A stretch of 64,000 bases of DNA from a virus: positions 1 through 64,000 of IMG/VR virus record IMGVR_UViG_3300006947_000003. One strand, written 5' to 3'. A program made the translations under genes and the position numbers. This document shows positions 2,772 through 33,626 of the stretch, piece by piece (position 1 is the stretch's first letter; each line of letters opens with the position of its first letter). The notes below the pieces were generated by a model. It was not told the origin of the DNA. It worked only from the letters and a program-made list of their open reading frames with translations, and searched no databases.

Positions 2772-3164
2772 TTACCTAGTGGTTGTTTCTGGGTTCTTAC
2801 CTTGGTAATCTTTAATAGCTGATTTGATTGCGTCTTCGGCTAATACACTACAATGAATCTTAACAGGTGGCAGAGCAAGTGACTCAACAATATCCATGTT
2901 CTTAATATCTGTTGCTTCTTGTATTGTCATACCCTTGACCCAAGTAGTTAACAAGCTACTGGACGCTATGGCACTACCACAGCCATACGTTTTAAATTTA
3001 GCATCTTCAATGATACCGTCTTTAACTTTAATTTGAAGCTTCATCACGTCGCCACAAGCAGGAGCACCTACCATGCCAGTTCCGATAGACTTATCTGTCA
3101 TATCAAATTTACCTACGTTCCTTGGGTTGTTATAATGATCTAAAACTTGTTCTGAATATGCCAT
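2772..3164 (-). CDS. iscU: IscU iron-sulfur cluster scaffold
   Basis: 130 aa, the usual IscU length. IscU assembles 2Fe-2S and 4Fe-4S clusters using sulfur from the cysteine desulfurase IscS and hands them on with the HscA/HscB chaperones. All three ligand cysteines are present: C37 (GAPACGD, with D39), C62 (YGCGSAIASSS) and C105 (KIHCS). The HscA-docking motif LPPVK is intact at 98-102. No IscS, HscA, HscB or IscA is visible, so it should work with host partners. It follows the acyl-carrier-like gene and precedes the QueC-like and radical SAM genes, which suggests it supports clusters for the 13 radical SAM enzymes in the window. Confidence 0.95.
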   Translation of the reverse strand: MAYSEQVLDHYNNPRNVGKFDMTDKSIGTGMVGAPACGDVMKLQIKVKDGIIEDAKFKTYGCGSAIASSSLLTTWVKGMTIQEATDIKNMDIVESLALPPVKIHCSVLAEDAIKSAIKDYQGKNPETTTR

Positions 3165-12083: not shown

Positions 12084-13582
12084 TATTCTTCGTCCAGTAG
12101 TCTAGCCATATCAGGAAAGGTAGTCCTGAAGTCTGTTCCTCGTTGGGCATCCATTAAGTTAATGTATTCTCTAAACTCTGGCATACGTTGTGACCAGTCT
12201 TCTGATTCCATAAATGTTAACATACCTTCTAGTCGTTCTATACCGTAACTAGCAGTACGCCAAGTTTCGTAATCAACTTTTCCTTTATGCCACTCGGGAA
12301 TTCCCTTTTCCCAGTTAGCTTCCCACCATGGATAAAATTCTTCGTACTTCTTACGACATGCTTCTTTAAACCATTTAGGTAATACTTTAACATTTAAGTG
12401 TGGCGGATGATAAACAAAGTGATAGTTAATACCACCAGCACCAAATGGCCACATGTTAATTTTACTAAAGCCTTGCTCTAGTTTCCATTTAATAAAGTCA
12501 GGCAAGTAATAAATGTTAAGAGCCTGTACAGCACACGCTACAGTAATTTCTGTATTGTCGCCTGTTTCTTGATCCCATATTTTAAATACTTCTTCGTTTC
12601 GTTCCCATTCGCTTGGGAAACGTATGTAATCATTCCATTCTTTAATCGAGTCAACACTATAATGAAAACGTACTAATTTGAAGTGTTTCCATAACTCTAA
12701 GAGGTCCGGACGCCACTCAACACCGTTGCTGTTATAACGTATTTCCATCTTACTAGCATAGCCTTGGCGTATAACTTCTTCGAGTATTTCGTAGTGTTCT
12801 TCGATGATTAAACTCTCACCGCCAGCAAAGTAAATCTGTTTCATGTTTGGAACTTGCTGATAAAACTGTTCCCAAAACTTAGGATTCTTTTTATGCCAGT
12901 TGTAACTAGCACCAAAGTTTTTACCCTTGTTATCCCACACCATTGTTTGCTTTAGGTTTTCATTTTTTACTTTAGGATAAACTTCTGTCCAATCTTTAAC
13001 CCAGTCACTTGAATCATGTGGGCTACACATTACACATCTTAAATTACACTTAGTACCAAAGCGTAAATCTATGTATGCTAACTGTGGAGGCACTTCTCCG
13101 TCCTCTGAGGTTTCTTCAATTAGCTGATCTAGATCTACACGCTGTCTCCAGTAATGTGTTTCCCATTCTCGTTTTGATTTATGACCTGCGGCTTCTTCTT
13201 TATAACACTTTACACAGCTAGGTGGTTTCTCACCAGCTAACATTTGTGTTCTAACATTCTTCATGTATGAACCGTTCCAGCTAGAAAGGAAATCACTTAC
13301 ATTTAAGTTATTGGGTTTACCGTCTTCGTCTTTCAGTATACCTACTTGACCCCCATGCTTACCTCGGTCGTTAGTAGCACCAACACTTGAAGCATTTGCT
13401 GTACAGCAAACTCTCATAGCACCGTCAGGTCTAGTACTTAAATGGACCCAAGGAAGAATACAAAATGTATCACTTGGTAGTTTGTCTTTATTCTCATCTA
13501 CGTTTATTGCTTTAGACTGCTGTGACGGGATTATGTCTAATGTGATCTCTGGTTGTATTCTTAATTCTTGTTCTTCGCTCAT
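12083..13582 (-). CDS. Radical SAM protein, N-terminal twitch type
   Basis: 499 aa. A 38-residue leader precedes the N-terminal module C41, C59/C60, C123, C126 (CVKCYKEEAAG). Core: C179-x3-C183-x2-C186 and GGE (FAGGESL). It is the closest relative of 7417-8748. The Asp-Ser-Ile-Lys segment where most paralogues have S-x-DG suggests a slightly different active site. The start overlaps the nfu stop by one base. Directly downstream of nfu, a good position for receiving clusters. Substrate unknown. Confidence 0.92.
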   Translation of the reverse strand: MSEEQELRIQPEITLDIIPSQQSKAINVDENKDKLPSDTFCILPWVHLSTRPDGAMRVCCTANASSVGATNDRGKHGGQVGILKDEDGKPNNLNVSDFLSSWNGSYMKNVRTQMLAGEKPPSCVKCYKEEAAGHKSKREWETHYWRQRVDLDQLIEETSEDGEVPPQLAYIDLRFGTKCNLRCVMCSPHDSSDWVKDWTEVYPKVKNENLKQTMVWDNKGKNFGASYNWHKKNPKFWEQFYQQVPNMKQIYFAGGESLIIEEHYEILEEVIRQGYASKMEIRYNSNGVEWRPDLLELWKHFKLVRFHYSVDSIKEWNDYIRFPSEWERNEEVFKIWDQETGDNTEITVACAVQALNIYYLPDFIKWKLEQGFSKINMWPFGAGGINYHFVYHPPHLNVKVLPKWFKEACRKKYEEFYPWWEANWEKGIPEWHKGKVDYETWRTASYGIERLEGMLTFMESEDWSQRMPEFREYINLMDAQRGTDFRTTFPDMARLLDEE

Positions 13583-13896
13583 TACATTCTATCCATCGGG
13601 TCATAATCGTCCATTGGCATTGTATGATAAGGATCATTAAAGTTTGGATCGTCTTCTCCTACAACTTCGGTTACTTCGGGTATATAATGTTTTAGCATGT
13701 TTTCAATACCCATTTTTAACGTTATCATACTGCTTGAACATCCAGAACAAGACCCACTTAATAACGTTTTAAGAATGCCAGTTTCCATATCAAAGTCTAA
13801 TACTTTGACCTCGCCGCCGTGTTGGGCAACGTTTGGCTGTATCTTCTCGTCCATTATTTTGTTTATTTCTGTTAGTATTTCTTCTTTTGTTTTCAT
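13582..13896 (-). CDS. Nfu-type iron-sulfur cluster carrier (NifU C-terminal domain)
   Basis: 104 aa from the ATG at 13896, which overlaps the upstream stop as ATGA; an ATG at 13908 would add four residues. The NFU domain is clear: IQPNVAQHGGEV near the N-terminus and the cluster-binding CSGC motif (C50 and C53 from this start). Nfu proteins bind a 4Fe-4S cluster between two monomers and deliver it to target enzymes. The C-terminal 25 residues form an acidic, Met- and Pro-rich tail not typical of the domain. It lies between two radical SAM genes; together with iscU it makes an assembly-plus-delivery pair. Confidence 0.93.
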   Translation of the reverse strand: MKTKEEILTEINKIMDEKIQPNVAQHGGEVKVLDFDMETGILKTLLSGSCSGCSSSMITLKMGIENMLKHYIPEVTEVVGEDDPNFNDPYHTMPMDDYDPMDRM

Positions 13897-14903
13897 TTGT
13901 ATATCCACGGTAAAGTTAATTTTGAATCTGTGCCCCTATGTTTATCGAGTGCTGTGAGCCAGTCTATTAAGTTGTCTTGTGGCTGCCCTACAGCGAGAAT
14001 TGATGGTTCAGTAAGTGTATTAACATCTACGTCAGTTAATCCTTTTTCTGTACACCAATCTAATATTGTGTCAATATGTTCTTCATTTAGTTGCGATTTT
14101 GTTACATTTACAGCAGTATGTATGTGCTTTTGCTGTAGTAATGTATTTAGATTATTCTCGAATGTCTCCCAATCTAACGGAAACCTAATATACTCGCCAA
14201 CTTCGTTAATACCATCCACACTAATAGTTATCACTATTTTTTTGAAGTGTTCTAGCAACTGGAGTATAGTATTATCTAGCATTGTTAAGTTAGTAGTAAT
14301 TTGTAAATCGATATGTTTACTATGCCCATTGTTAATTAATCCCTGTAATAAATGTTTTACAGATGGCATATAAAATGGTTCGCCACCTGCTAATTGCAAT
14401 CGTTTGATTGATTTAGAATGATATAATATTTCATCAATTTGTTTAGTACTGAACTTAACAGTCTTCTCATACGGCTCTATGGCTAAATGGATATCTTCGA
14501 TCCATTTACTACTAACACGTGGGTTACACATGACGCATTTTAAGTTACACACGTTACCAGGGCGTAAGTCATAGTACTGGGGCAAGGATGACATGTACCC
14601 GTCACCACGTACTACGTAATCCCATTTGTCGAATTGTTTGTTTACTTTTATACGTTTACTATCGCGACCACAATCTTCATCAGCCCAGCACGTACTACAC
14701 GCATTTGGTCTTTGACTATATAACATTTGCCTTCTTATTTTTTTTAAGTAATACGAATTGAAACTTGTAACATCTTTATACTCTGGCCCTAACTCTGTTC
14801 GGTCTCCAATGCAACAGGGCAGTAGTTTATTATCAGTATCAACAAATTGTTGAATGAATGGCAGTATGCAAAAACTATTGGAACTGTGCTTTGAATGGAT
14901 CAT
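13893..14903 (-). CDS. Radical SAM protein, N-terminal twitch type (short form)
   Basis: 336 aa. I start it at ATG 14903 because a strong GGGGAGGA ribosome binding site sits just before it and the overlap with the upstream gene is smaller than from ATG 14927. From this start the N-terminal module is C12, C30/C31, C69 and C72, and the core has C119-x3-C123-x2-C126 with GGE (LAGGEPF). It lacks the long C-terminal extension of the paralogues, ending soon after the core barrel. It overlaps nfu by 4 bases. Substrate unknown. Confidence 0.9.
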   Translation of the reverse strand: MIHSKHSSNSFCILPFIQQFVDTDNKLLPCCIGDRTELGPEYKDVTSFNSYYLKKIRRQMLYSQRPNACSTCWADEDCGRDSKRIKVNKQFDKWDYVVRGDGYMSSLPQYYDLRPGNVCNLKCVMCNPRVSSKWIEDIHLAIEPYEKTVKFSTKQIDEILYHSKSIKRLQLAGGEPFYMPSVKHLLQGLINNGHSKHIDLQITTNLTMLDNTILQLLEHFKKIVITISVDGINEVGEYIRFPLDWETFENNLNTLLQQKHIHTAVNVTKSQLNEEHIDTILDWCTEKGLTDVDVNTLTEPSILAVGQPQDNLIDWLTALDKHRGTDSKLTLPWIYK

Positions 14904-19478: not shown

Positions 19479-19742
19479 TTAGCCTTCTTCTTCCATCATC
19501 TTTTCCCAAGCGATAGTCATACTGTTAAACATTAAATCATAATGAAACTTTGCTCTATCTTCTTCATTTAAGTCACCATCATAGTCGGCTTGTAGTTCAT
19601 CAGCAAGAACTTCTGCAAAGTGTTCTATGTCTGCTTCATCTTCTATTGTTTCTATATGATGTCCATAATAGTTTTCTACTGTTTCGTAGTCTGACTCTAG
19701 TGCAATTGCAAAATGTTTTATTAGTGTATCTTCTTCTACCAT
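19479..19742 (-). CDS. Small acidic unknown protein
   Basis: 87 aa, rich in Glu and Asp. I start it at ATG 19742, which overlaps the metK stop as ATGGTAG; in-frame ATGs at 19757 and 19793 would place more of it inside metK. It looks fully helical (TLIKHFAIALESDYETVENYYG, then an acidic helix). No family recognised. The tight coupling to metK suggests co-translation. Confidence 0.65.
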   Translation of the reverse strand: MVEEDTLIKHFAIALESDYETVENYYGHHIETIEDEADIEHFAEVLADELQADYDGDLNEEDRAKFHYDLMFNSMTIAWEKMMEEEG

Positions 19743-20827
19743 CCAATCTTCTCCCATGGTACATCTTTGTCGCCAAAGTGTCCGTATACACAATTCTCAC
19801 TATATCCATAAAAGTTAAATAAATCAAACCTATCAATAATACCTTTTGGTGTAAGGTCAATATTTTCTCTAATATACTTTTGAATACTTTTATTATGTCC
19901 GTTGCTGTCAATGTAAATGCTTGTTGGTTCTTTTACACCGATAGCATATGATAGTTGTATTTGGCACCAGTCAGCCATATCGTCTGCTACAACATTCTTT
20001 GCTAACCAACGTGCCATATATGTAGCACTACGATCTACTTTCGTAGGGTCCTTTCCAGAAAAAGCACCACCACCATGAGGAGCGAAACCACCATAGGTGT
20101 CCACGATAATTTTTCGTCCTGTAACTCCGGTGTCTCCATCAGGTCCGCCAATAACAAAATTGCCAGTAGGATTAATATGCCATGTAGTGTTTTCATCAAT
20201 TAAATCTCCCAGTACTTCACGTGCCGCATCCTTGATGGGCATTCTTATACTATCACCGAACCCTTTTTTGTGCTGATGAGATACTACAATTTGGTCAACA
20301 CGCTTTGGTACTCCGCCGCTGTATTCTATGCTTACTTGACTTTTAGCATCTGGTAGCATATAGTCGTAACCTGACTTACGCTTCTCATTGAGATTTTTTA
20401 ATATCTCGTGACTGTAATAAATCGGAGCAGGTAAGAAAGACCCGTTATCGAGACAGGCATAACCAAACATAAGACCTTGATCGCCGGCACCAAACTCATC
20501 TGTGCCTAATCCAATGTCGCCACTTTGGCTATGTATAAGATTATTAATTTTTAGATTTTCGTAATGGAACCCGTCTTGTTTGTATCCAATCTCTTTAACT
20601 TTGTCACGAATAAGTTGTTCTATTTCGTCGGGTGTTACATTAAAGTTTTTTACTTCGCCTGCAATTGTAACATGATTAGTAGTTACAAGTGTTTCAACCG
20701 CAACACGAGTAGTTTCGTCTCCTGCTTTTAGACCAGCATCTACTAACGTATCACTGATTTGATCTGCTACTTTATCTGGATGACCAGCACTTACTGACTC
20801 ACTTGTAAAAGTGTAATTATTTTCCAT
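19736..20827 (-). CDS. metK: S-adenosylmethionine synthetase
   Basis: 363 aa, slightly short of the bacterial 380-390. It makes SAM from ATP and methionine. Signature segments are intact: SESVSAGHPDKVADQISD (ATP and Mg binding), GAGDQGLMFGYA, and GGGAFSGKDPTKVDRSA. It heads an 18-gene unit holding eight radical SAM genes and a methyltransferase, so it probably raises the SAM supply for them. A perfect sigma-70 promoter (20926-20954) and a roughly 92-base leader with hairpins lie upstream; the ribosome binding site is AGGAG at 20836-20840. Confidence 0.97.
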   Translation of the reverse strand: MENNYTFTSESVSAGHPDKVADQISDTLVDAGLKAGDETTRVAVETLVTTNHVTIAGEVKNFNVTPDEIEQLIRDKVKEIGYKQDGFHYENLKINNLIHSQSGDIGLGTDEFGAGDQGLMFGYACLDNGSFLPAPIYYSHEILKNLNEKRKSGYDYMLPDAKSQVSIEYSGGVPKRVDQIVVSHQHKKGFGDSIRMPIKDAAREVLGDLIDENTTWHINPTGNFVIGGPDGDTGVTGRKIIVDTYGGFAPHGGGAFSGKDPTKVDRSATYMARWLAKNVVADDMADWCQIQLSYAIGVKEPTSIYIDSNGHNKSIQKYIRENIDLTPKGIIDRFDLFNFYGYSENCVYGHFGDKDVPWEKIGW

Positions 20828-20925: not shown

Positions 20926-20954
20926 ATTATAACAAATATTAGAGAGTTTGTCAA
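20926..20954 (-). promoter_or_regulatory. Exact consensus sigma-70 promoter for the metK unit
   Basis: Minus strand TTGACA (20954-20949), 17-bp spacer, TATAAT (20931-20926). The -35 box overlaps the stop codon of the carbamoyltransferase gene. It should drive metK and the 17 genes after it. Confidence 0.92.
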
Positions 20955-22465
20955 GAGCAAACTCTAACTTTATATTCTGTTTCAAACCTATCAGCATCTT
21001 CGCGGGTGTCAACCATTGGCTCGCCCCTGATATTGAGGCTTGTATTAAGTAGCATAGGACAACCGGTTAGTGTAAACCACTTTTCTAATAGTTGTCTCAC
21101 ACCACTTTCGCTGTTTTCTGGAACAGTTTGTACCCTACTAGTACCGTCTACGTGTACAATAGCAGGAAATTCTTCTGGCTTTTTACAGTTAGCAACGACT
21201 TGCATGTATGGTGATGTTGGTAAGTTTTTTGGCATTTCAAAATATTGATCTACAAATTCTTCCATAATTATTGGAGCAAATGGTCTAAATTTTTGCCTAC
21301 GTTTAATATCATTTACTTGATCTTTAATGTCTTCACCCCGAGGGTCTGCTAATAAACTTCTATTACCTAATGCTCTAGGTCCAAACTCTGCTCTGCCACT
21401 TGCTACACCTACTATTTTATTTGTGCTCAATTCGTTTAGTAAGTCGTCGACTGGATAGTCACCTTCAATGTTTGTACCTAAGTAAGGATGAGACCAGCGT
21501 ACATGTTTGCCGTATACTTTTGCCGCGGCACCTAAACTACTACCACAGTCTCCTGGGTTGGGCATTATCCAAACATTATCCCACCACTTGCCTAAGTTTC
21601 TATTATATAAACAGTTAAGGGCAACACCACCCTGATATACCAGGTTATTACTTTTGCCTAACTTTTTAGCACGAGCCATTACTTCGTCAATTAATTTTTC
21701 AACAACTGCTTGGGTACTTGCGGCAATATCCATTTCGTCTATATCTTTTAAGAATTCTTCGTCAACACCGGTGTGTAAGTTCTGTGTAAATTTTACATCA
21801 CCTATATCTTTAATAAGACTATTTTTAATAGTGTGTTCAACATCTGTGGCATTTTTGCCATGGCCTGCCATTCCCATCAAAATATATTCTTCGTCTTGTG
21901 GGCGTAGCCCGAGTCGTCCTGTCATTGCTGAATAATATAATCCTATAGAGTGAGGGTACTTTTGACTCCATAATTTTTTATAATCTACTTCACCATACCT
22001 TCCCATCATAGGAAATTTATTATATGTTGCTGACCAAATAGAAATAGTATCCCATTCTCCGATAGCATCTATTACTACAACTGTAGCATCCTGGAAGGGA
22101 GATGTTTGAAACCCAGAAGCAACATGTGACATATGATGATTGAGTGTGTGAACCTTTTTAGGTAACATATCATAATATGATCCAAAGTGCTTTTTTAAAG
22201 TTTGTTTAATTGTCCATGTTGACCCTTTTTTATATCCCTGTCCGGCATATATTTCTCTTGTCTTTTTCTTCCATGGTGTTTCGTAATATGCTACACAATC
22301 AAATGGACCATGCTTAAATGCTTCTTCGATTATTTCTGGACATAAATTTTTATCGTGTTTCTTTTTACTAAAGCGTTCACTGTGTCCAGCAAATAAAATT
22401 TTATCGTTGTGTAATACAGTTAGGCCAGCATCGTGAAATCCTGCACTCACACCTAGTATCTTCAT
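20951..22465 (-). CDS. Carbamoyltransferase (NodU/CmcH/TobZ family)
   Basis: 504 aa. The N-terminal Kae1-like domain opens ILGVSAGFHDAG and holds the metal-binding H110/H111/H114 (LNHHMSHVASGF) and the following Asp (VVIDAIGEWD). The C-terminal YrdC-like part has GVASGRAEFGPRALGNRS and NTSLNIRGEP. Enzymes of this family transfer a carbamoyl group from carbamoyl phosphate, through carbamoyl-AMP, onto a hydroxyl of a sugar or antibiotic. The end after NTSLNIRGEPMVDTREDA is short, so the C-terminus may be slightly truncated relative to the family. It overlaps the upstream radical SAM gene as ATGA and may add a carbamoyl group to the island's product. Confidence 0.9.
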   Translation of the reverse strand: MKILGVSAGFHDAGLTVLHNDKILFAGHSERFSKKKHDKNLCPEIIEEAFKHGPFDCVAYYETPWKKKTREIYAGQGYKKGSTWTIKQTLKKHFGSYYDMLPKKVHTLNHHMSHVASGFQTSPFQDATVVVIDAIGEWDTISIWSATYNKFPMMGRYGEVDYKKLWSQKYPHSIGLYYSAMTGRLGLRPQDEEYILMGMAGHGKNATDVEHTIKNSLIKDIGDVKFTQNLHTGVDEEFLKDIDEMDIAASTQAVVEKLIDEVMARAKKLGKSNNLVYQGGVALNCLYNRNLGKWWDNVWIMPNPGDCGSSLGAAAKVYGKHVRWSHPYLGTNIEGDYPVDDLLNELSTNKIVGVASGRAEFGPRALGNRSLLADPRGEDIKDQVNDIKRRQKFRPFAPIIMEEFVDQYFEMPKNLPTSPYMQVVANCKKPEEFPAIVHVDGTSRVQTVPENSESGVRQLLEKWFTLTGCPMLLNTSLNIRGEPMVDTREDADRFETEYKVRVCS

Positions 22466-23652: not shown

Positions 23653-24967
23653 AGTACTCCTTGAACTCTGGGAAGGTTTTAACAAAGTCTGTTCCTCTCC
23701 GTTTGTCTAGTTCGTGTACATATGATTTTAAATCTTCTCGTTGTTTAGTAAAATCGTTCTGTTGCTGATGCTTCCAGTACTTGTATATACGTTCCATCTT
23801 AGCAGTCTCATCTTCGTCGAACCATTTAGATTTAGCCATGTACTTCCAGCTTTTCTCTATAAGGTCACCCTCTTTCATAATTTTACAGTCTAAAAATTCA
23901 GGATGTCTAACATAAGGAATATCTACGTAGACTGATTCTTTACCGTACCGCTCTCTTATAAGTTCAATGTCTTTCATGAACATTGTAAAACTGCTAATAC
24001 TTAATGCATTATAGGCACACATGAAAGTGATCGGAACTTCTGGTAAAGTTTCGATACATTGTGCTACACGTCTAATAAATTCATCGTAGTTCATACCAAA
24101 TCTAATGTAATCGTTTTTATCGTCCCATGCTTCTGCTGATGTGTATATTTCTAACTTGCGAAGTTTATTACTATCTAATATTTCTCGGGATTGTTTTAAA
24201 AACTTATTAAATAGTTTATCAGGTACGCCAAAATTAGCATTAATACCTAACAGTAAATTAGTATTTGGTTCTTCTGCTTCTTGAATATAATCTAATACTT
24301 TAAAAGTATTCTTGTTCATTAACGGCTCACCACCTGTTATTCTAAACGTGTGTAAGCTCTGATACAGTCTAGGCCACCATTTCCAAAATGCTTCTTGGTA
24401 AGGATTGTGTTCACGTTCTGGTATAGGCATTTGGCCTGCATGTTCTAGCCATTCTAAGTTGTTATACTTGTTGCTTGTTGGATACGGTCCATGCTGTTTA
24501 ATTTCTTCCATCCATTTAGAACTAATATGTGGAGCACAATAGATACACTTAAAGTTACAAGCATTACCAAAACTTACTTCAACGTATGTAGGATCAAAGT
24601 CTTCGTCGCCTTCCATTGCTGCAATTTTATTAAAGTGCGGTTCACTCCAACTAAAGCTACTTTTATAATGCCTATCGCTTAACATCTCAGGAGCCGCATC
24701 TTCTACTCTCCAACAGTAATCGCATTCTTTAGGACGCACACCGTTAAGCATTTCCTTGCGGCGTTCTTTTTTAAACTTTGTATTATGTAAAGCACTAGGG
24801 TTTACTTCTAGTTCCTCTAGAGGAATTTTATGTGTACTCGGATGATGACAACTCTGTGTATGACCGTTTTGTAAATGTAAAGTTACTTGGGTCCATTTGG
24901 CAAGGCACAGGCTTGGACTTTTCTCGTCTAACCTCTTTTGCATTTCGCGCCAGTTTTTATTCGCCAC
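23645..24967 (-). CDS. Radical SAM protein, N-terminal twitch type
   Basis: 440 aa with a GTG start at 24967 that overlaps the HAD gene's stop. The first module is atypical: C21, C40 followed by HHP (one Cys and two His instead of two Cys), then C82 and C85 (CDYCW). Core: C137-x3-C141-x2-C144 (CNFKCIYC), GGE (ITGGEPL). The most diverged of the group. Overlaps the next radical SAM gene as ATGAGTAA. Substrate unknown. Confidence 0.9.
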   Translation of the reverse strand: MANKNWREMQKRLDEKSPSLCLAKWTQVTLHLQNGHTQSCHHPSTHKIPLEELEVNPSALHNTKFKKERRKEMLNGVRPKECDYCWRVEDAAPEMLSDRHYKSSFSWSEPHFNKIAAMEGDEDFDPTYVEVSFGNACNFKCIYCAPHISSKWMEEIKQHGPYPTSNKYNNLEWLEHAGQMPIPEREHNPYQEAFWKWWPRLYQSLHTFRITGGEPLMNKNTFKVLDYIQEAEEPNTNLLLGINANFGVPDKLFNKFLKQSREILDSNKLRKLEIYTSAEAWDDKNDYIRFGMNYDEFIRRVAQCIETLPEVPITFMCAYNALSISSFTMFMKDIELIRERYGKESVYVDIPYVRHPEFLDCKIMKEGDLIEKSWKYMAKSKWFDEDETAKMERIYKYWKHQQQNDFTKQREDLKSYVHELDKRRGTDFVKTFPEFKEYYE

Positions 24968-25661
24968 TATATAGATCCTTTAATAATTGGAATGTTTCGT
25001 CGGGACCAGTTACATGATAAAACTTATCGTATAACCTTAACATTTCTACTAACGGATAGTCATTGCCTGTAGTCTCACATCGATCACCAAAAAATACTAA
25101 AGGCGTTCCTATAGTATTATAAACTTGTGATTTATTTCTACCCTTCATGAATATATCTAAACTAGTGTTTCCGCCAATTGATGCCTCAAAGCCTGGAAAC
25201 TTTTTATTAAACCTTTGTGATATGTCTAATCGTTCACCGTGTTCGTTATCCCACTCAAAGTAAACATCTCTGGCTTCTTCGGGCATATCTCGTCCAGCTA
25301 TACAAAAGTTAATTACGCCTACACGTTTTTCAATATGATTACCATATCTATGTGGGTAAGCACTTTTTTCTAATTCGTTTTCTAACCATCCTATCATATC
25401 TTCTGGTGGTGTAAAGTTTGTTTGTGCTATAGGAATACCATATCGCCATACATCATTGCCAGCACACTGGAAAGCCATGCTACAATTATCTACAATCTCT
25501 GGTCCTATTTGTTCTATTGTTTTTGGTCTGTCACTGCCTGTTACGAGGTAAACAGTTTTATCTTTCATCCAATCAATAAACCAAGACTTAAAGTCGGGGT
25601 CCATTAGTTGTCTAGCATGAGTTAATGTTCCGTCTACGTCGAAAACAAAATTCTTTTCCAT
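24957..25661 (-). CDS. HAD-superfamily protein resembling eukaryotic-type phosphomannomutase
   Basis: 234 aa. Opens FVFDVDGTLT with nucleophile D8 and D10. The later GGNTSLDIFMKGRNK and LVFFGDRCETTGNDY segments match the corresponding blocks of eukaryotic PMM (GG-x-x-S-x-D-x-F-x-x-G and FFGD...GND). PMM interconverts mannose-6-P and mannose-1-P for GDP-mannose; a phosphatase with a similar cap is equally possible. The next gene downstream is a radical SAM gene, and sugar nucleotide functions lie in the neighbouring unit. Confidence 0.8.
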   Translation of the reverse strand: MEKNFVFDVDGTLTHARQLMDPDFKSWFIDWMKDKTVYLVTGSDRPKTIEQIGPEIVDNCSMAFQCAGNDVWRYGIPIAQTNFTPPEDMIGWLENELEKSAYPHRYGNHIEKRVGVINFCIAGRDMPEEARDVYFEWDNEHGERLDISQRFNKKFPGFEASIGGNTSLDIFMKGRNKSQVYNTIGTPLVFFGDRCETTGNDYPLVEMLRLYDKFYHVTGPDETFQLLKDLYSGE

Positions 25662-25662
25662 A

Positions 25663-26217
25663 TTATGATCCTAAATATTCTACTGCCTTGATGACAGGGA
25701 CACCTGCTTGTAGTACCCTGGCCTCTCCGCCTACCTCAGGCAAGTTAACCACACAACCAAATGCTAATACATTAGCTCGCCATTCACGTTGTATGATATT
25801 AATAACAGCTAACGCAGTACCGCCTGTTGCTAGTAAGTCGTCTATTATAATAACATTCTCTCCGTCGTGGATAGAATCAGATTGTATTTCCAATGTTGCT
25901 GAACCGTATTCTAATTTAAATTCTTGTCCGTGTACAGCACCTGGAAGTTTGCCCTTTTTTCTAGCTAGTACTAATGGCACATTAAATCTATGTGCTAATA
26001 CACCGCCGAATATAAATCCCCTAGCATCAACGGCCACAATACGATCAACCTTATGTTTGTATTTTAGCATACGATCATACATAAAGTTTTGTGCTAATCT
26101 CAAACCAGGCCCATTACATAAACTAGAAGTATCTTTAAAGTCTACTCCCTTGACTGGCCAATCAGGATATGTTTTAATATAATCCTTAATTAGTTTTCTG
26201 TTTTTGCCATCAGCCAT
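25663..26217 (-). CDS. apt: Adenine phosphoribosyltransferase
   Basis: 184 aa, normal length. Converts adenine plus PRPP into AMP. The PRPP-binding loop VIIIDDLLATGGTA is intact, and AVDARGFIFGGVLA and ARKKGKLPG are the usual substrate loops. It overlaps the RuBisCO-like gene by 8 bases. Adenine is released when 5'-deoxyadenosine, the by-product of radical SAM reactions, is broken down by nucleosidases, so a salvage role next to so many radical SAM genes is sensible. Confidence 0.95.
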   Translation of the reverse strand: MADGKNRKLIKDYIKTYPDWPVKGVDFKDTSSLCNGPGLRLAQNFMYDRMLKYKHKVDRIVAVDARGFIFGGVLAHRFNVPLVLARKKGKLPGAVHGQEFKLEYGSATLEIQSDSIHDGENVIIIDDLLATGGTALAVINIIQREWRANVLAFGCVVNLPEVGGEARVLQAGVPVIKAVEYLGS

Positions 26218-27337
26218 TGTCGATAGCTTTCCTTAGTTCCTCTACACCTGCCCTAATACCTTTAGGGTGTGTGTGGATTGCGCCGCCTACATTTGCCATC
26301 CAGTCGTTGCCGAATTTTTCTCTAATAACAGGAATTAAATCCTTTGTCATGCCGCAACTAAATGCCGGAGTAAGATTTTGTTCTAAACAAACATTTTGAA
26401 TATTTTTAAGTTCTTCATACCCCATGTCCATATAGCCGCCGTACATACCAGCGTGAATTGTATCACATCCTATGAGGCCTGCTAACTTACACATAACTGC
26501 CCATTCAATTCTGTAGGCATTGTACTTGCTTGTAAGAACTTTATCGCCACTCTTTTGAAAGTGTATGAATGTTCCATTGTCTTCGTCTCTAATAGCCTTG
26601 TAAGCACCCATGCCACTCCAGAAGTTAATATGTACTCCCATACCTCCCCATCCACTAACAGTTCTTGCTTTGTCCATTAATGTGTGCGGATCTGAATTAA
26701 TACAATAACAATAAACAGTTTTAGATCCATCAATGATAGGCTGTACTATGCCGATCCTTTCTTCAAGGGTTAAACAAGCAGGGTTGCTCATAATCTCATC
26801 TTCTTTAATAAAATCAGTGCCGCCATCTACCATTTGTTGTACAATATCTTTTAATGTAGCAGGAGAAAGTCCTGTTTTTGGTTTAACAATAGTACCTAAT
26901 AACGGTTTATCATATTGTTGAACGTGATCTCTAAAGCCAGTGAGACCGTATGCTGGCGCTGATAAATCTGCTTTGACTCTATCAATATTAATATCAGTCC
27001 AATGACATTGCTGTATAATGTCAATGTCCATTTGCCCTCCCATCACAGTACACATTAGTTGAGCTATGCCATCTGCATACCAATCAATGTTTCTATAAGG
27101 CCAGGCAATTTCGACTACACCTGCTTGAACAACTGCTAAGTCATCTGGGTCAGCTATAATCTTAGCACTATGATTTTCCATCATTTCCGTTGTTTCATAT
27201 TTACTTCGCACAGACGGGTTACCGATACTTTGTCCTATTGCTAATCCTTCGGCCGCTTCTTTTAGTGTTGTTTTACTTTGTAAAAAGAAGTGACAGCTAA
27301 AGTGATCTTCGGGTTTATTTGCTCTATATATTTCCAT
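26210..27337 (-). CDS. RuBisCO-like protein (form IV-type, not a carboxylase)
   Basis: 375 aa, about 100 shorter than form I large subunit but with the full fold. By eye against spinach numbering: the active-site lysine K175 and K177 are kept (K152 and K154 in KPKTGLSP), as is the metal site carbamylated Lys, Asp, Glu (K178, D180 and E181 in DFIKEDE) and the H327 equivalent (H295). However, R295 (R to F), H294 (H to N), loop-6 K334 (K to Y) and one Gly of the 379-381 motif are changed. That combination fits a RuBisCO-like enolase or isomerase acting on sugar phosphates, as in methionine salvage. The start coincides with the predicted transcription start (leaderless). Followed by apt. Confidence 0.88.
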   Translation of the reverse strand: MEIYRANKPEDHFSCHFFLQSKTTLKEAAEGLAIGQSIGNPSVRSKYETTEMMENHSAKIIADPDDLAVVQAGVVEIAWPYRNIDWYADGIAQLMCTVMGGQMDIDIIQQCHWTDINIDRVKADLSAPAYGLTGFRDHVQQYDKPLLGTIVKPKTGLSPATLKDIVQQMVDGGTDFIKEDEIMSNPACLTLEERIGIVQPIIDGSKTVYCYCINSDPHTLMDKARTVSGWGGMGVHINFWSGMGAYKAIRDEDNGTFIHFQKSGDKVLTSKYNAYRIEWAVMCKLAGLIGCDTIHAGMYGGYMDMGYEELKNIQNVCLEQNLTPAFSCGMTKDLIPVIREKFGNDWMANVGGAIHTHPKGIRAGVEELRKAIDNG

Positions 27338-27343
27338 AATGTT

Positions 27344-27372
27344 ATTATACCTTCTTTAGTTCTGAATGTCAA
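27344..27372 (-). promoter_or_regulatory. Exact consensus sigma-70 promoter for the RuBisCO-like/apt/radical SAM unit
   Basis: Minus strand TTGACA (27372-27367), 17-bp spacer, TATAAT (27349-27344). It is embedded in the last codons of the cupin gene. The expected start site, 6-7 bases beyond TATAAT, falls at the A of the RuBisCO-like gene's ATG (27337), so that message would be leaderless. Confidence 0.9.
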
Positions 27373-27685
27373 ATGAATATTTGTCATCTGTGTTACAAAT
27401 ATCCTTTACTACTATTACTTTAATGTCTGTTAAAAATTCTACAATGCTTACTTCATAAGGTTCAATAACAAAAATATCATTTGCTTTCAAGTGTTTGCCG
27501 TTACAAATCATTTCGCCTTCTATAATAAATGTTACTTCTCGTTGTTCCTTATGAAAATGATCTTGGTGGAACTCACCTTTAGTGTGTGTATGATATGCTA
27601 CTTCAAAGTTGGCGGGCATTGCCGTTGTTGGAAAGTCCCCAACAAACCAACCTTTGAACATATCTTTAAAGTCAAATGTTTTCAT
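27356..27685 (-). CDS. Small cupin-domain protein
   Basis: 109 aa from ATG 27685, which follows an AGGAAA site right after the nucleotidyltransferase stop; an upstream ATG at 27736 would lie inside that gene. One cupin barrel with possible metal ligands: HTHTKGEFHQDHFHKEQ and then E in EVTFIIEGEM, followed by the G-x-H-L-x-A-x-D-x-x-x-I-x-P turn. Single-domain cupins include sugar epimerases and small dioxygenase-type enzymes. It is next to a sugar nucleotidyltransferase (possibly sugar chemistry) and just upstream of the RuBisCO-like gene; in Rhodospirillum rubrum a cupin works after a RuBisCO-like isomerase. Confidence 0.75.
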   Translation of the reverse strand: MKTFDFKDMFKGWFVGDFPTTAMPANFEVAYHTHTKGEFHQDHFHKEQREVTFIIEGEMICNGKHLKANDIFVIEPYEVSIVEFLTDIKVIVVKDICNTDDKYSFDIQN

Positions 27686-27686
27686 G

Positions 27687-28418
27687 TTATTTCCTGTAAT
27701 GCCTATGTGTATAATGTTGCCAATCGTGTTGTACACCTACAGGCCAAAATGTATTCGCATGTACTCGATCAACTCGGACATCATGTCCTTCTGTAATTAG
27801 TTCGTTATAAACCGCCGCAACATAATATTCTCCATATTCTGGTGGCTTACTTAATAATGTGTTAACACTATCGTTAAATACTTCACCGTTATGGAAATGA
27901 TAAAATCCAGTGGTAGCATTGTTCGTAGGAAGTCCTGCTGTTGTTTTTTCCGTACATAGATGAACCTTATCAGTATCACCTTCGGTATGAGCAAAACTAT
28001 GTCGTTCGGTATCTGTGTGATTATAAATTGCTATGTAACTAGACTCGGGGTTATTAGTTATTTTCTTTTGTAGGCTAGTAGTATCCCATTCAAACACTTG
28101 ATCGCAATTAACACTAATAAAAGGGTTGCTACTAGTCATTACTTCGCTACATTTTTGTAATGTTTCAGCCGCTCCTTGTGTTGTTTCCTCTATTGCTGTA
28201 ATACTACCCATACTTTCTAACAATGGTTTCATAAAAGGATGATCTTTAAGATGTTGCATTTTTACAACAAAATGCCAATCAGCGTCAGGCCACTCTAAAC
28301 TGTAATACACATTTTGTATCATAGTCGTGTTGCCAGTTCTAATTAAAGGCTTTGGGTAAAGATGTCCTTGTTCCTGGAAACGTGATCCAAGCCCTGCCAT
28401 TGCTACTACTATATTCAT
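27687..28418 (-). CDS. Sugar-phosphate nucleotidyltransferase
   Basis: 243 aa. The N-terminal signature MAGLGSRF...YPKPLI is the nucleotide-binding loop and catalytic Lys/Arg region of NTP-transferases, which activate a sugar-1-phosphate to NDP-sugar. NCDQVFEWD carries the metal-binding Asp. The C-terminal part is short, as in single-domain phage and archaeal forms. It forms an ATGA overlap with the small basic gene upstream and is followed two bases later by the cupin. It probably makes the sugar donor for the glycosyltransferases in this unit. Confidence 0.9.
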   Translation of the reverse strand: MNIVVAMAGLGSRFQEQGHLYPKPLIRTGNTTMIQNVYYSLEWPDADWHFVVKMQHLKDHPFMKPLLESMGSITAIEETTQGAAETLQKCSEVMTSSNPFISVNCDQVFEWDTTSLQKKITNNPESSYIAIYNHTDTERHSFAHTEGDTDKVHLCTEKTTAGLPTNNATTGFYHFHNGEVFNDSVNTLLSKPPEYGEYYVAAVYNELITEGHDVRVDRVHANTFWPVGVQHDWQHYTHRHYRK

Positions 28419-31220: not shown

Positions 31221-31647
31221 ATCCTAGTTTAGTATTATATTCTTTAAACATTTTTAATATATTGGGTTTTAATTCTTTCATAACATCATTTTCTTTATAA
31301 CGAGATTTTTCTTTGTGCTCTGGGTAAAATTTTTCGCCAGTTAGTTGTTGTATGTAATTAGCTGTTGTTTCCATGCTGTTGTAGTGAAAGCGTTTACAGT
31401 TACTAGGAATATCAGGAATATCAGGAACAACAACTTTATCTAAAAATTTCTTTTGTATTAGACCGCTATCATGCCATTGATCAAAGAATATTCTAAAGCA
31501 ATCTTTGTATACAATAAAACTATGTAATGCTGTATTAGTATCTGATTCTATTGTAGCGTGTTTGTGATTTTTAAATCCGTACAGCATTTCTTCGTCTGCG
31601 CCTGAGATATTATAATAACAAAATAAGCCAACGGTGCTAATAATCAT
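31207..31647 (-). CDS. Unknown protein
   Basis: 146 aa from ATG 31647, which overlaps the previous stop as TAATG; an ATG at 31674 would add nine residues inside the previous gene. It begins with a hydrophobic stretch (MIISTVGLFCYYNISG) that may be a strand rather than a signal peptide. The rest is mixed helical with a Pro-rich DIPDIP repeat encoded by a 10-base tandem. No family recognised. In the glycan-type gene cluster. Confidence 0.6.
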   Translation of the reverse strand: MIISTVGLFCYYNISGADEEMLYGFKNHKHATIESDTNTALHSFIVYKDCFRIFFDQWHDSGLIQKKFLDKVVVPDIPDIPSNCKRFHYNSMETTANYIQQLTGEKFYPEHKEKSRYKENDVMKELKPNILKMFKEYNTKLGYEYE

Positions 31648-32369
31648 TAATACGCATCTCTTATTGTTTGCCAATCTAATACAGGATCTAAGTCAACTAC
31701 TGATGTACGCCAGAGTGTTTCGCCTAATTGGGGATTAAGTTGTATCATTCTTAAATTGTATTTTTGTCCTAATTGATACATTATTGTTCCTGGTGAATAC
31801 ATAGTATCTTCTGGGTCTATGTTACCACCAGTTATACATGTTTGTTGTTTTTGCATTAATGTCCAATTATAATACCTGTAACTATCACTAACAATGTCCA
31901 TAGCATGACTATTACCCCAGTATATTATATCACTAAAGCCATGTGTAGCAAAGTCGGTTAATACTAATCCATTGTTGCCTATGCTATAGTATATGCTTCG
32001 ATCAATTACATCTGTATATGTCCAACGCTTGTGTACTGGTATTAGTAAATCAAATCTACATTTAATTACAATGTCGTATCTAAAGTTATTTTTAATTTCG
32101 TGTTGCCTTTTAAGCCAATTGGATTGCTGTATACTGTATAACATATTGCCACAAAAGCCTTTGTGTTTCCATGGTGTTTCTACAAATGACTCAACGGGAT
32201 CTAAAAGTTCGTTAAGTTGTGCCCAGTCTTCTTCGGGCTGGTCATCGTCCCAAGCATGATAAAAATGATCTGCTTTTATGTTTTCAAAAAACTTTAACAA
32301 GTAAGGAACAGCTCGTAGTCCAGTTCTTAATTGCCCGCTCCAACATATAGCAATTTTAGGTGATCTCAT
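31647..32369 (-). CDS. Glycosyltransferase-like protein, SGQLR family
   Basis: 240 aa. Starts KIAICWSGQLRTG and has YDIVIKCRFDLL in the middle, where GT-like enzymes have a substrate or metal site. The gene at 32356-33189 has the same two landmarks (VCVSGQLRGRYEE and YDLCVRMRFDNY). I read them as paralogous glycosyltransferase-like proteins widespread in marine phages. Function inferred from these features and neighbours only. Confidence 0.6.
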   Translation of the reverse strand: MRSPKIAICWSGQLRTGLRAVPYLLKFFENIKADHFYHAWDDDQPEEDWAQLNELLDPVESFVETPWKHKGFCGNMLYSIQQSNWLKRQHEIKNNFRYDIVIKCRFDLLIPVHKRWTYTDVIDRSIYYSIGNNGLVLTDFATHGFSDIIYWGNSHAMDIVSDSYRYYNWTLMQKQQTCITGGNIDPEDTMYSPGTIMYQLGQKYNLRMIQLNPQLGETLWRTSVVDLDPVLDWQTIRDAY

Positions 32370-33189
32370 GGGAACCTCCGCTGTAATGGTTTTCTTCTCG
32401 TTTTAATTTTATAGGCATGTATGTTTGCTTAGGTTTAATATGGTTTGCTTTTATATGAAATGATAAAACGTGTTCAGGCCCGTATGCTTCTTGCCTGCCT
32501 AAATCAAACCATTCTCGTTTATACTTTGGAATACAACTATAAAAATCACAAATACGATCATAATCAAAACTAGGAGCTGACCAGTAAACATCACTACATC
32601 TGTATCTATGAAAATCGTCAAACGTTTGATGTATTACATTAACGTTGCCTAATGCTATTGGTGACAACCTATATTCTTCTTCAACAATCTTGCCTAATGC
32701 TATTGGCTGAAAGCGTTCTCCTTCAGCCGTGATGTCTAATGCTGGCGGTGACATCTTATATTCTTCTTCAACATAGTTGTCAAATCTCATTCTAACACAC
32801 AAATCATATTCCATAGCAAACTCGCGTTCGTACTGTTGCTTTAAATGGCAAGCCATCATTACACCATAAAACTGGCTATGATAATTAGGGTCAAATACTG
32901 CCCATTCGTGTTGATCCTTACCTCTGTTAACAAAGTCAATGGGATCTTCAACTAATATTTTTTTAGGTTTTAATAATCTCTTAACTATATTAAGTTCTGT
33001 ATTACTGTGAACTTTTTCTTCGTTATCGTTATTAGCGTGTGCTACTTTATTTGGCGCTGTAGAGTTAGTCCACGTATGTACAAAATAGTCTACTTCGTCG
33101 GTGAGTGGGTCAAACATTTTCTCCCAACTAGGAATACATTCTTCGTATCTTCCTCTTAACTGGCCACTGACACAAACTGCTATTTTCAT
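32356..33189 (-). CDS. Glycosyltransferase-like protein, SGQLR family (with internal duplication)
   Basis: 277 aa. Has MKIAVCVSGQLRG and YDLCVRMRFDNY, as in its neighbour. Between residues about 139 and 179 it contains a partial duplication: VEEEYKMSPPALDI followed 29 residues later by VEEEYRLSPIALGN, and the DNA shows the repeats. The C-terminal part contains an LSFH and a KREENHYSG tail. Overlaps both neighbours by 4 and 14 bases. Confidence 0.6.
   Translation of the reverse strand: MKIAVCVSGQLRGRYEECIPSWEKMFDPLTDEVDYFVHTWTNSTAPNKVAHANNDNEEKVHSNTELNIVKRLLKPKKILVEDPIDFVNRGKDQHEWAVFDPNYHSQFYGVMMACHLKQQYEREFAMEYDLCVRMRFDNYVEEEYKMSPPALDITAEGERFQPIALGKIVEEEYRLSPIALGNVNVIHQTFDDFHRYRCSDVYWSAPSFDYDRICDFYSCIPKYKREWFDLGRQEAYGPEHVLSFHIKANHIKPKQTYMPIKLKREENHYSGGSHEIT
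32645..32773 (-). repeat. In-frame duplication inside the SGQLR-type gene
   Basis: TTGCCTAATGCTATTGG occurs at 32645-32661 and 32690-32706; a 36-bp segment at 32651-32686 recurs at 32738-32773 with few differences, an 87-bp (29-codon) period. It preserves the reading frame and duplicates the EEEY-x-x-SP-x-AL motif. Confidence 0.85.
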
Positions 33190-33626
33190 TCTATAACTCC
33201 GATGTAATCACTACAAATACCGTAGCAATCTTTATATATTTTTAATTCTTCTGCTGTAGGTCTTTCCATATGACAAACAACTGACTTAGGACCATACTTG
33301 TTATAATCTGAATGTGTCCAAATATAACCATGGTTTGTTAATGTAACATCGTCTCCTTGGTGCCAAAAACAATTAATGCCTTCGTTGGTCATATACTCTA
33401 GTGCTTGTATGTCTTTAGCGTGGCACCATAACCCCTTCATTTTTAGCATATTCTTGTTAACTGATGCTATAGGGCTATCGTGTCCTAGTTGAACCATACC
33501 GTTGCTATACCACACATCTATTTCAACATCATATCCTTCTGCTAGTGCTTCAAAAATATAATGTGGGCTGTTTTCCCTTTTAGGATTTGGCCCAAATAAA
33601 TTACCTCTATGACTTATCTTTCTCAT
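33186..33626 (-). CDS. PLC-like/glycerophosphodiester phosphodiesterase-type protein
   Basis: 146 aa, shorter than usual GDPD enzymes. It has ISHRGN (catalytic His), then a RENSP motif, YDVEIDVW (E-x-D metal ligands) and VQLGHDSP (second His). These are the GDPD/PI-PLC TIM-barrel landmarks; the C-terminal half of the barrel is missing, so activity is uncertain. It could remove glycerol from a glycerophospho-glycan. It overlaps the Fpr gene. Confidence 0.75.
   Translation of the reverse strand: MRKISHRGNLFGPNPKRENSPHYIFEALAEGYDVEIDVWYSNGMVQLGHDSPIASVNKNMLKMKGLWCHAKDIQALEYMTNEGINCFWHQGDDVTLTNHGYIWTHSDYNKYGPKSVVCHMERPTAEELKIYKDCYGICSDYIGVIE

Follow-up and report, generated by a model that had tools for sequence, protein, structure and literature searches.

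Gene content of the locus

The stretch of DNA analyzed here (64,000 nucleotides, called the window below) belongs to a marine virus record of 122,450 bp (IMGVR_UViG_3300006947_000003), which is a T4-type myovirus by its markers: baseplate wedge, hub, portal, major head protein, an SbcCD-like nuclease and a late sigma factor. The window encodes a RuBisCO-like protein (RLP) with genes for a small cupin and a nucleotidyltransferase (NTase) upstream (Table 1). On the downstream side, the end of the RLP gene shares 8 nt with apt, which is followed by two Radical_SAM genes (Pfam) and a SAM synthetase gene. An earlier, sequence-only reading had described the RLP as adjoining apt, lying in front of radical-SAM genes and having a cupin just upstream, and these neighborhoods were all borne out; the HAD-IIB/PMM-like and NTase genes were absent from that description. 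About 10 of 81 loci, those of the window's sub-lineage, have the HAD-IIB/PMM-like gene.

Table 1. Genes around the RLP in the window, with the basis of each assignment
Feature	Position	Strand	Basis or remark
RLP, 375 aa	26210-27337	-	ORF with ATG start, Pfam, PDB, AlphaFold model, alignment
apt, adenine phosphoribosyltransferase	25663-26217	-	NCBIfam and ORF overlap; confined to the window's sub-lineage
HAD-IIB / PMM-like phosphatase	24957-25661	-	between apt and the radical-SAM genes
Small cupin	27356-27685	-	phrog_24762; homologue alignment; weak Pfam Cupin matches of homologue L043
NTase, sugar-phosphate NTP_transferase type, GxGxRF motif	27687-28418	-	upstream of the cupin
SGQLR-motif protein	31647-32369	-	family recurs in RLP clusters
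SGQLR-motif protein	32356-33189	-	family recurs in RLP clusters
Minimal GDPD-like protein, 146 aa, HRGN...EN...ExD...GHD motif	33186-33626	-	profile against PDB GDPD, fold, linkage, phrog_34507
Radical_SAM cluster, at least 10 genes	767-24967		Pfam
Carbamoyltransferase	20951-22465		in the radical-SAM cluster
SAM synthetase	19736-20827		in the radical-SAM cluster
NifU/IscU-like small protein	2772-3164		in the radical-SAM cluster, by inspection
NifU/IscU-like small protein	13582-13908		in the radical-SAM cluster, by inspection

The cupin ORF extends to 27736, but its start is probably 27685, since the aligned homologues share the Met at residue 18. The best matches of the window NTase among the NCBIfam sugar-1-phosphate nucleotidyltransferase models reached E = 3.3×10−13, all below cut-off; a homologue from another locus (L043) matches Pfam NTP_transferase, and the family carries the GxGxRF motif. 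The two SGQLR-motif proteins are, by their context, probably glycosyltransferase-like, and the second had no match in a Pfam scan. The GDPD-like protein is predicted to be a glycerophosphodiester phosphodiesterase reduced to a minimal form (E = 1.1×10−4 for a profile match to GDPD in the PDB; fold match to 1v8e, E = 2.7×10−4); in the window its gene is separated from the RLP by about 6 kb on the upstream side, and in relatives the distance is mostly below 3 kb. Searches of the cupin, GDPD-like and NTase proteins against the PDB gave broad family-level matches only.

A RuBisCO fold with a modified active site

The RLP belongs to the RuBisCO large-subunit superfamily by both profile and fold. 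It matched Pfam RuBisCO_large (PF00016) with E = 1.9×10−31 and 109.9 bits (gathering cut-off 30.1), and its residues 18-373 matched form III RuBisCO (E = 2×10−28) and MtnW (E = 1.5×10−24) in the PDB. An AlphaFold model, with 26 homologues in the input, had a mean pLDDT of 93.3 and a pTM of 0.92, and aligned to the form III enzyme of P. horikoshii (2cwx/2d69) with a TM score of 0.88. The dN/dS against an 89%-identical homologue (L003) was 0.07; the RLP is therefore under purifying selection and is a real gene rather than a chance ORF.

Active-site residues were compared by aligning 104 members of the clade and 36 reference RuBisCOs and RLPs, and the equivalences given here (spinach numbering) rest on this alignment. 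K175, K177, K201, D203 and E204, corresponding to K152, K154, K178, D180 and E181 of the window protein, are invariant in 104/104 members; K177 is kept in forms I-III and changed in the other RLPs compared. Of the catalytic set that also marks forms I-III (H294, R295, K334 and T65) no residue is retained in the window: H294 is replaced by Q261 (Q in 104/104 members, H in all 36 references), K334 by Y302 (Y in 103/103 members where the position is covered), T65 by N40 (N in 104/104) and R295 by K262. This agrees with the sequence-only reading, which had noted a kept metal site (K178, D180, E181) and replaced H294, R295 and K334 equivalents, and had considered a phage form-IV-like protein unlikely to fix CO2. 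The residue pattern would fit a metal-dependent enolizing enzyme without carboxylation, and the RLP, also in view of its clade, is probably a form-IV-like, non-carboxylating RuBisCO homologue.

A distinct and mostly viral clade

In IMG/VR, 167 relatives of the RLP came up in a scan with a single sequence and 355 in a profile-guided one, so that the clade is present on at least 355 viral contigs in addition to 23 cellular loci. The ORF was of intact length in 80/80 of the relatives kept from the 167 of the first scan. On one viral contig (L254:592-1507) the RLP is split over two adjacent frames, apparently by a frameshift or a sequencing error. The cellular loci come from SAR11, Bacteroidota, Verrucomicrobia, Elusimicrobia, Legionella, Azospirillum, Patescibacteria and DPANN archaea. 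Part of these 23 contigs could be viral in origin; by inspection, the RLPs of two SAR11 loci (L094 and L095) sit amid core chromosomal genes. Among 399 sampled Pseudomonadota genomes, a clade-level score was obtained in the centre genome only (338 bits; next 137), with clade members scoring at least 304 bits and other RuBisCO-fold proteins at most 166 against the same profile.

In a tree of 84 rows the clade was separated from all references with 100/100 support. These references covered forms I-III, MtnW, OiaX and other sampled RLPs, the unnamed ones being placed only through solved-structure anchors and plasmid annotation; Global Ocean Sampling and Rru_A1998 sequences are not among them. An alphaproteobacterial Ykr-like group falls with MtnW outside the clade. 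The phylogeny, which the sequence-only reading had proposed as a check, places the RLP apart from bona fide carboxylases. Judged by sequence, the clade is distinct from all of these groups, mostly viral and so far unnamed. The RLP matched none of the PHROGs, no relatives were found in INPHARED, and a fold-level search of BFVD found no RuBisCO fold.

In the open full-text literature (which leaves subscription journals and preprints outside) we found neither a description of the clade or of its gene module nor a link of an RLP to nucleotidyltransferases or polysaccharide. Viral rbcL-like matches have been reported from landfill (PMC12607003), and a text search of a 2025 paper on the SAR11 O-chain returned no mention. 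The Global Ocean Sampling survey described new groups of marine RuBisCO homologues, comprising 65 sequences, that fall outside the known forms (PMC1821046). These resemble the present proteins in being marine and non-canonical, and are possibly the same clade; the comparison is by description only, and the passage that describes them mentions neither viral origin nor gene context.

Conserved linkage to a nucleotidyltransferase

To describe the surroundings of the clade, neighbor profiles were run over 104 loci and partners within 3 kb of the RLP on the same strand were counted on 70 loci dereplicated at 90% RLP identity (52 viral, 18 cellular). An NTase was found beside the RLP in 51/52 viral and 15/18 cellular loci; of the remaining cellular loci, two are contigs of less than 4 kb (L088, L104) and one has its NTase on the other strand (L082). 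The cupin was near the RLP in 41/52 viral and 7/18 cellular loci, and the GDPD-like gene in 39/52 and 10/18, respectively. Over the viral loci, there were 55 NTase matches in the 305 kb lying up to 3 kb from an RLP, as compared to 1 in the 591 kb beyond. The partner HMMs were trained on RLP neighbors, so that detection is biased towards RLP-linked subfamilies.

The NTase linkage persists across changed gene orders. Most viruses have the order NTase-cupin-RLP, while GDPD-RLP-cupin-NTase occurs in Azospirillum and Elusimicrobia (L097, L102), RLP-cupin-NTase in L098 and GDPD-NTase'-RLP-NTase in SAR11, where the RLP is surrounded by glycan genes (GT17, GT61, RmlD). In Legionella the RLP-NTase pair adjoins LicD, which is divergent and was found in Legionella only. 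The conserved linkage to a putative sugar-phosphate nucleotidyltransferase points to a nucleotide-sugar cassette and gives good support to the RLP being part of a glycan module.

Several further features were seen at individual loci. SAR11 loci L089-L095 have the RLP flanked by two NTase-family genes, and the upstream one (NTase'), in which L094 and L095 show no GxGxRF motif, is possibly a pseudoenzyme. A Nanoarchaeia contig (L091) carries a full-length GDPD at 12528-13295, near its RLP-NTase pair and on the opposite strand. At L105:8365-9780, in the same phage record as the RLP, lies what by inspection is an AMP-ligase-like (adenylate-forming) protein, with only a weak match to a PHROG of unknown function.

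The cassette also occurs without the RLP. Close relatives of the L043 NTase had an RLP nearby in 8/9 viral loci and those of the L043 cupin in 13/20, and 5/7 of the cupin loci that lack an RLP still have both the NTase and the GDPD-like gene. Viral cassettes of this kind encode a fusion of an NTase and an RpiB sugar isomerase (L263:7241-8392; RpiB part E = 1.7×10−33), an NTase-HAD domain fusion (L266:3896-4996) and a PfkB plus CTP_transf_like protein (L265:2147-4036). Since other sugar enzymes are present where the RLP is lacking, the module belongs to sugar-phosphate and nucleotide-sugar metabolism. These results suggest that the RLP supplies a step done elsewhere by a conventional sugar-phosphate enzyme, which is the core of the explanation that we favor.

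Proposed function and alternatives

We consider it fairly probable that the RLP works within a nucleotide-sugar/glycan cassette, as a metal-dependent isomerase or epimerase that enolizes a sugar phosphate. From the computed fold, clade, residues and linkage we infer the following catalysis, substrate, order of steps and role in glycan synthesis. Mg2+ would be held by Lys178 (predicted to be carbamylated), Asp180 and Glu181, and Lys152 would act as the base that enolizes a ketose (or aldose) phosphate. Re-protonation of the enediolate at another carbon would give an isomerized or epimerized sugar phosphate, and that sugar may also be a substrate of the cupin. The NTase would then convert the product into its activated form, an NDP-sugar (or NDP-polyol), from which glycosyltransferases would assemble a glycan of the phage or host surface, with the GDPD-like protein probably trimming or forming a phosphodiester in the pathway. 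For the wider proposition, the chances seem evenly balanced: that a RuBisCO-fold enzyme was recruited into nucleotide-sugar biosynthesis, its sugar-phosphate step feeding a dedicated NTase in an RLP-cupin-GDPD-NTase surface-glycan pathway, in a clade spread mainly by viruses but also present in SAR11, other bacteria and DPANN.

The sequence-only reading had placed the RLP in salvage: it would isomerize 5-deoxyribulose-1-P or MTRu-1P derived from the 5'-deoxyadenosine of radical-SAM enzymes, while apt would recover the adenine and the cupin would have the same part as in R. rubrum, where a Deep-Ykr RLP (MTRu-1P isomerase) is paired with a cupin MTXu-5P sulfurylase (PMC4958253). The overlap of apt with the RLP, the radical-SAM and SAM synthetase genes downstream, the 13 Radical_SAM matches in the record and the cupin upstream speak for this, and given the R. 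rubrum pairing the resemblance of the cupins was a fair lead. The distribution of these genes, however, did not follow that of the RLP. The adjacency to apt was seen in 4/104 raw loci (the window, L002, L003 and L009), that is 2/52 viral and 0/18 cellular loci after dereplication. Among 39 RLP-bearing virus records, radical-SAM genes were detected in 15 and not detected in the other 24, phosphoribosyltransferases were found in 10 and MTA/nucleoside phosphorylases (PNP_UDP_1) in 2; the search for a nucleosidase proposed with the salvage idea found no member of this phosphorylase family in the 122-kb record. Many records are fragments, so that little weight attaches to a gene missing from one of them, whereas the consistent linkage does carry weight. 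The RLP also lies outside the MtnW clade and far under the MtnW cut-off, and the NTase has no place in the R. rubrum route. Salvage is therefore highly unlikely, and the pathway reading should shift from by-product salvage to nucleotide-sugar/glycan synthesis, to which the conserved NTase, cupin and GDPD-like partners point.

Other chemistry is conceivable within the same cassette. H294 and K334 contribute to the shape of the RuBisCO active site, and their replacement makes reactions beyond isomerization, such as decarboxylation or retro-aldol cleavage, possible. The RLP might then be an OiaX-like lyase/decarboxylase, or a retro-aldolase, in either case forming or cleaving a branched or short sugar and leading to an NDP-activated alditol or ketose phosphate and a teichoic-like phosphodiester polymer. 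Phosphodiester chemistry is suggested by the GDPD-like partner and the LicD neighbor, and OiaX is, by its NCBIfam name, an RLP that decarboxylates; the score against OiaX is nevertheless far from its cut-off (see below), and LicD is confined to Legionella, which leaves this an unlikely though not negligible option. RuBisCO-fold proteins are oligomeric, and several NTase/cupin/GDPD-like loci do without an RLP, as might be expected if the RLP served the NTase as a non-catalytic scaffold or regulator; but the metal-site and base residues are invariant in viruses, bacteria and archaea and the dN/dS is low, so we regard such a role as very improbable. An aberrant carboxylating RuBisCO would account for the five kept residues, K177 among them, and for a form III enzyme being the nearest solved structure, yet the uniform changes at H294, K334 and T65 and the fully supported position outside forms I-III make it the least plausible of these readings, with hardly any chance of being correct.

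Relation to known RuBisCO-like proteins

The equivalog cut-offs of NCBIfam were not reached for either of the known RLP families MtnW and OiaX, and both were rejected as the identity of the protein. MtnW/YkrW, the DK-MTP-1P enolase (2oek), shares the fold, the metal site and a short form-IV-like length, whereas the RLP scored 100.9 bits against TIGR03332 (cut-off 513.6) and is separated from it in the tree; MtnW-type proteins have H at position 294 and M or C at 177, where the RLP clade has Q and K. OiaX and related RLPs of apionate catabolism (3nwr) again share fold and metal site, but the score was 105.7 bits against NF042437 (cut-off 700), and OiaX-type RLPs adjoin a four-carbon acid sugar kinase. 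The form III enzyme of P. horikoshii additionally shares S379 and G381, but differs at H298 (D in the window), has 26% identity and lacks the NTase/cupin context. The R. rubrum Deep-Ykr system has in common with the cassette an RLP beside a small cupin and, under our proposal, isomerase chemistry; it differs in that an NTase nearly always accompanies the present RLPs. No matching cupin or NTase was found near the genes of the unnamed alphaproteobacterial Ykr-like group.

The roles of RLPs considered here, namely those of MtnW and the R. rubrum protein (PMC4958253) and of OiaX (from its NCBIfam name), lie in catabolism or salvage. If our proposal is true, the tie of this deeply divergent RLP clade to a sugar NTase would extend the RuBisCO superfamily by an anabolic branch and provide a function for at least some of the non-canonical marine RuBisCO homologues, and much of the diversity of the clade would be seen to reside in viruses. 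Viral "rbcL" matches should in that case not be counted as carbon-fixation genes. The module is compact, consisting of three or four proteins.
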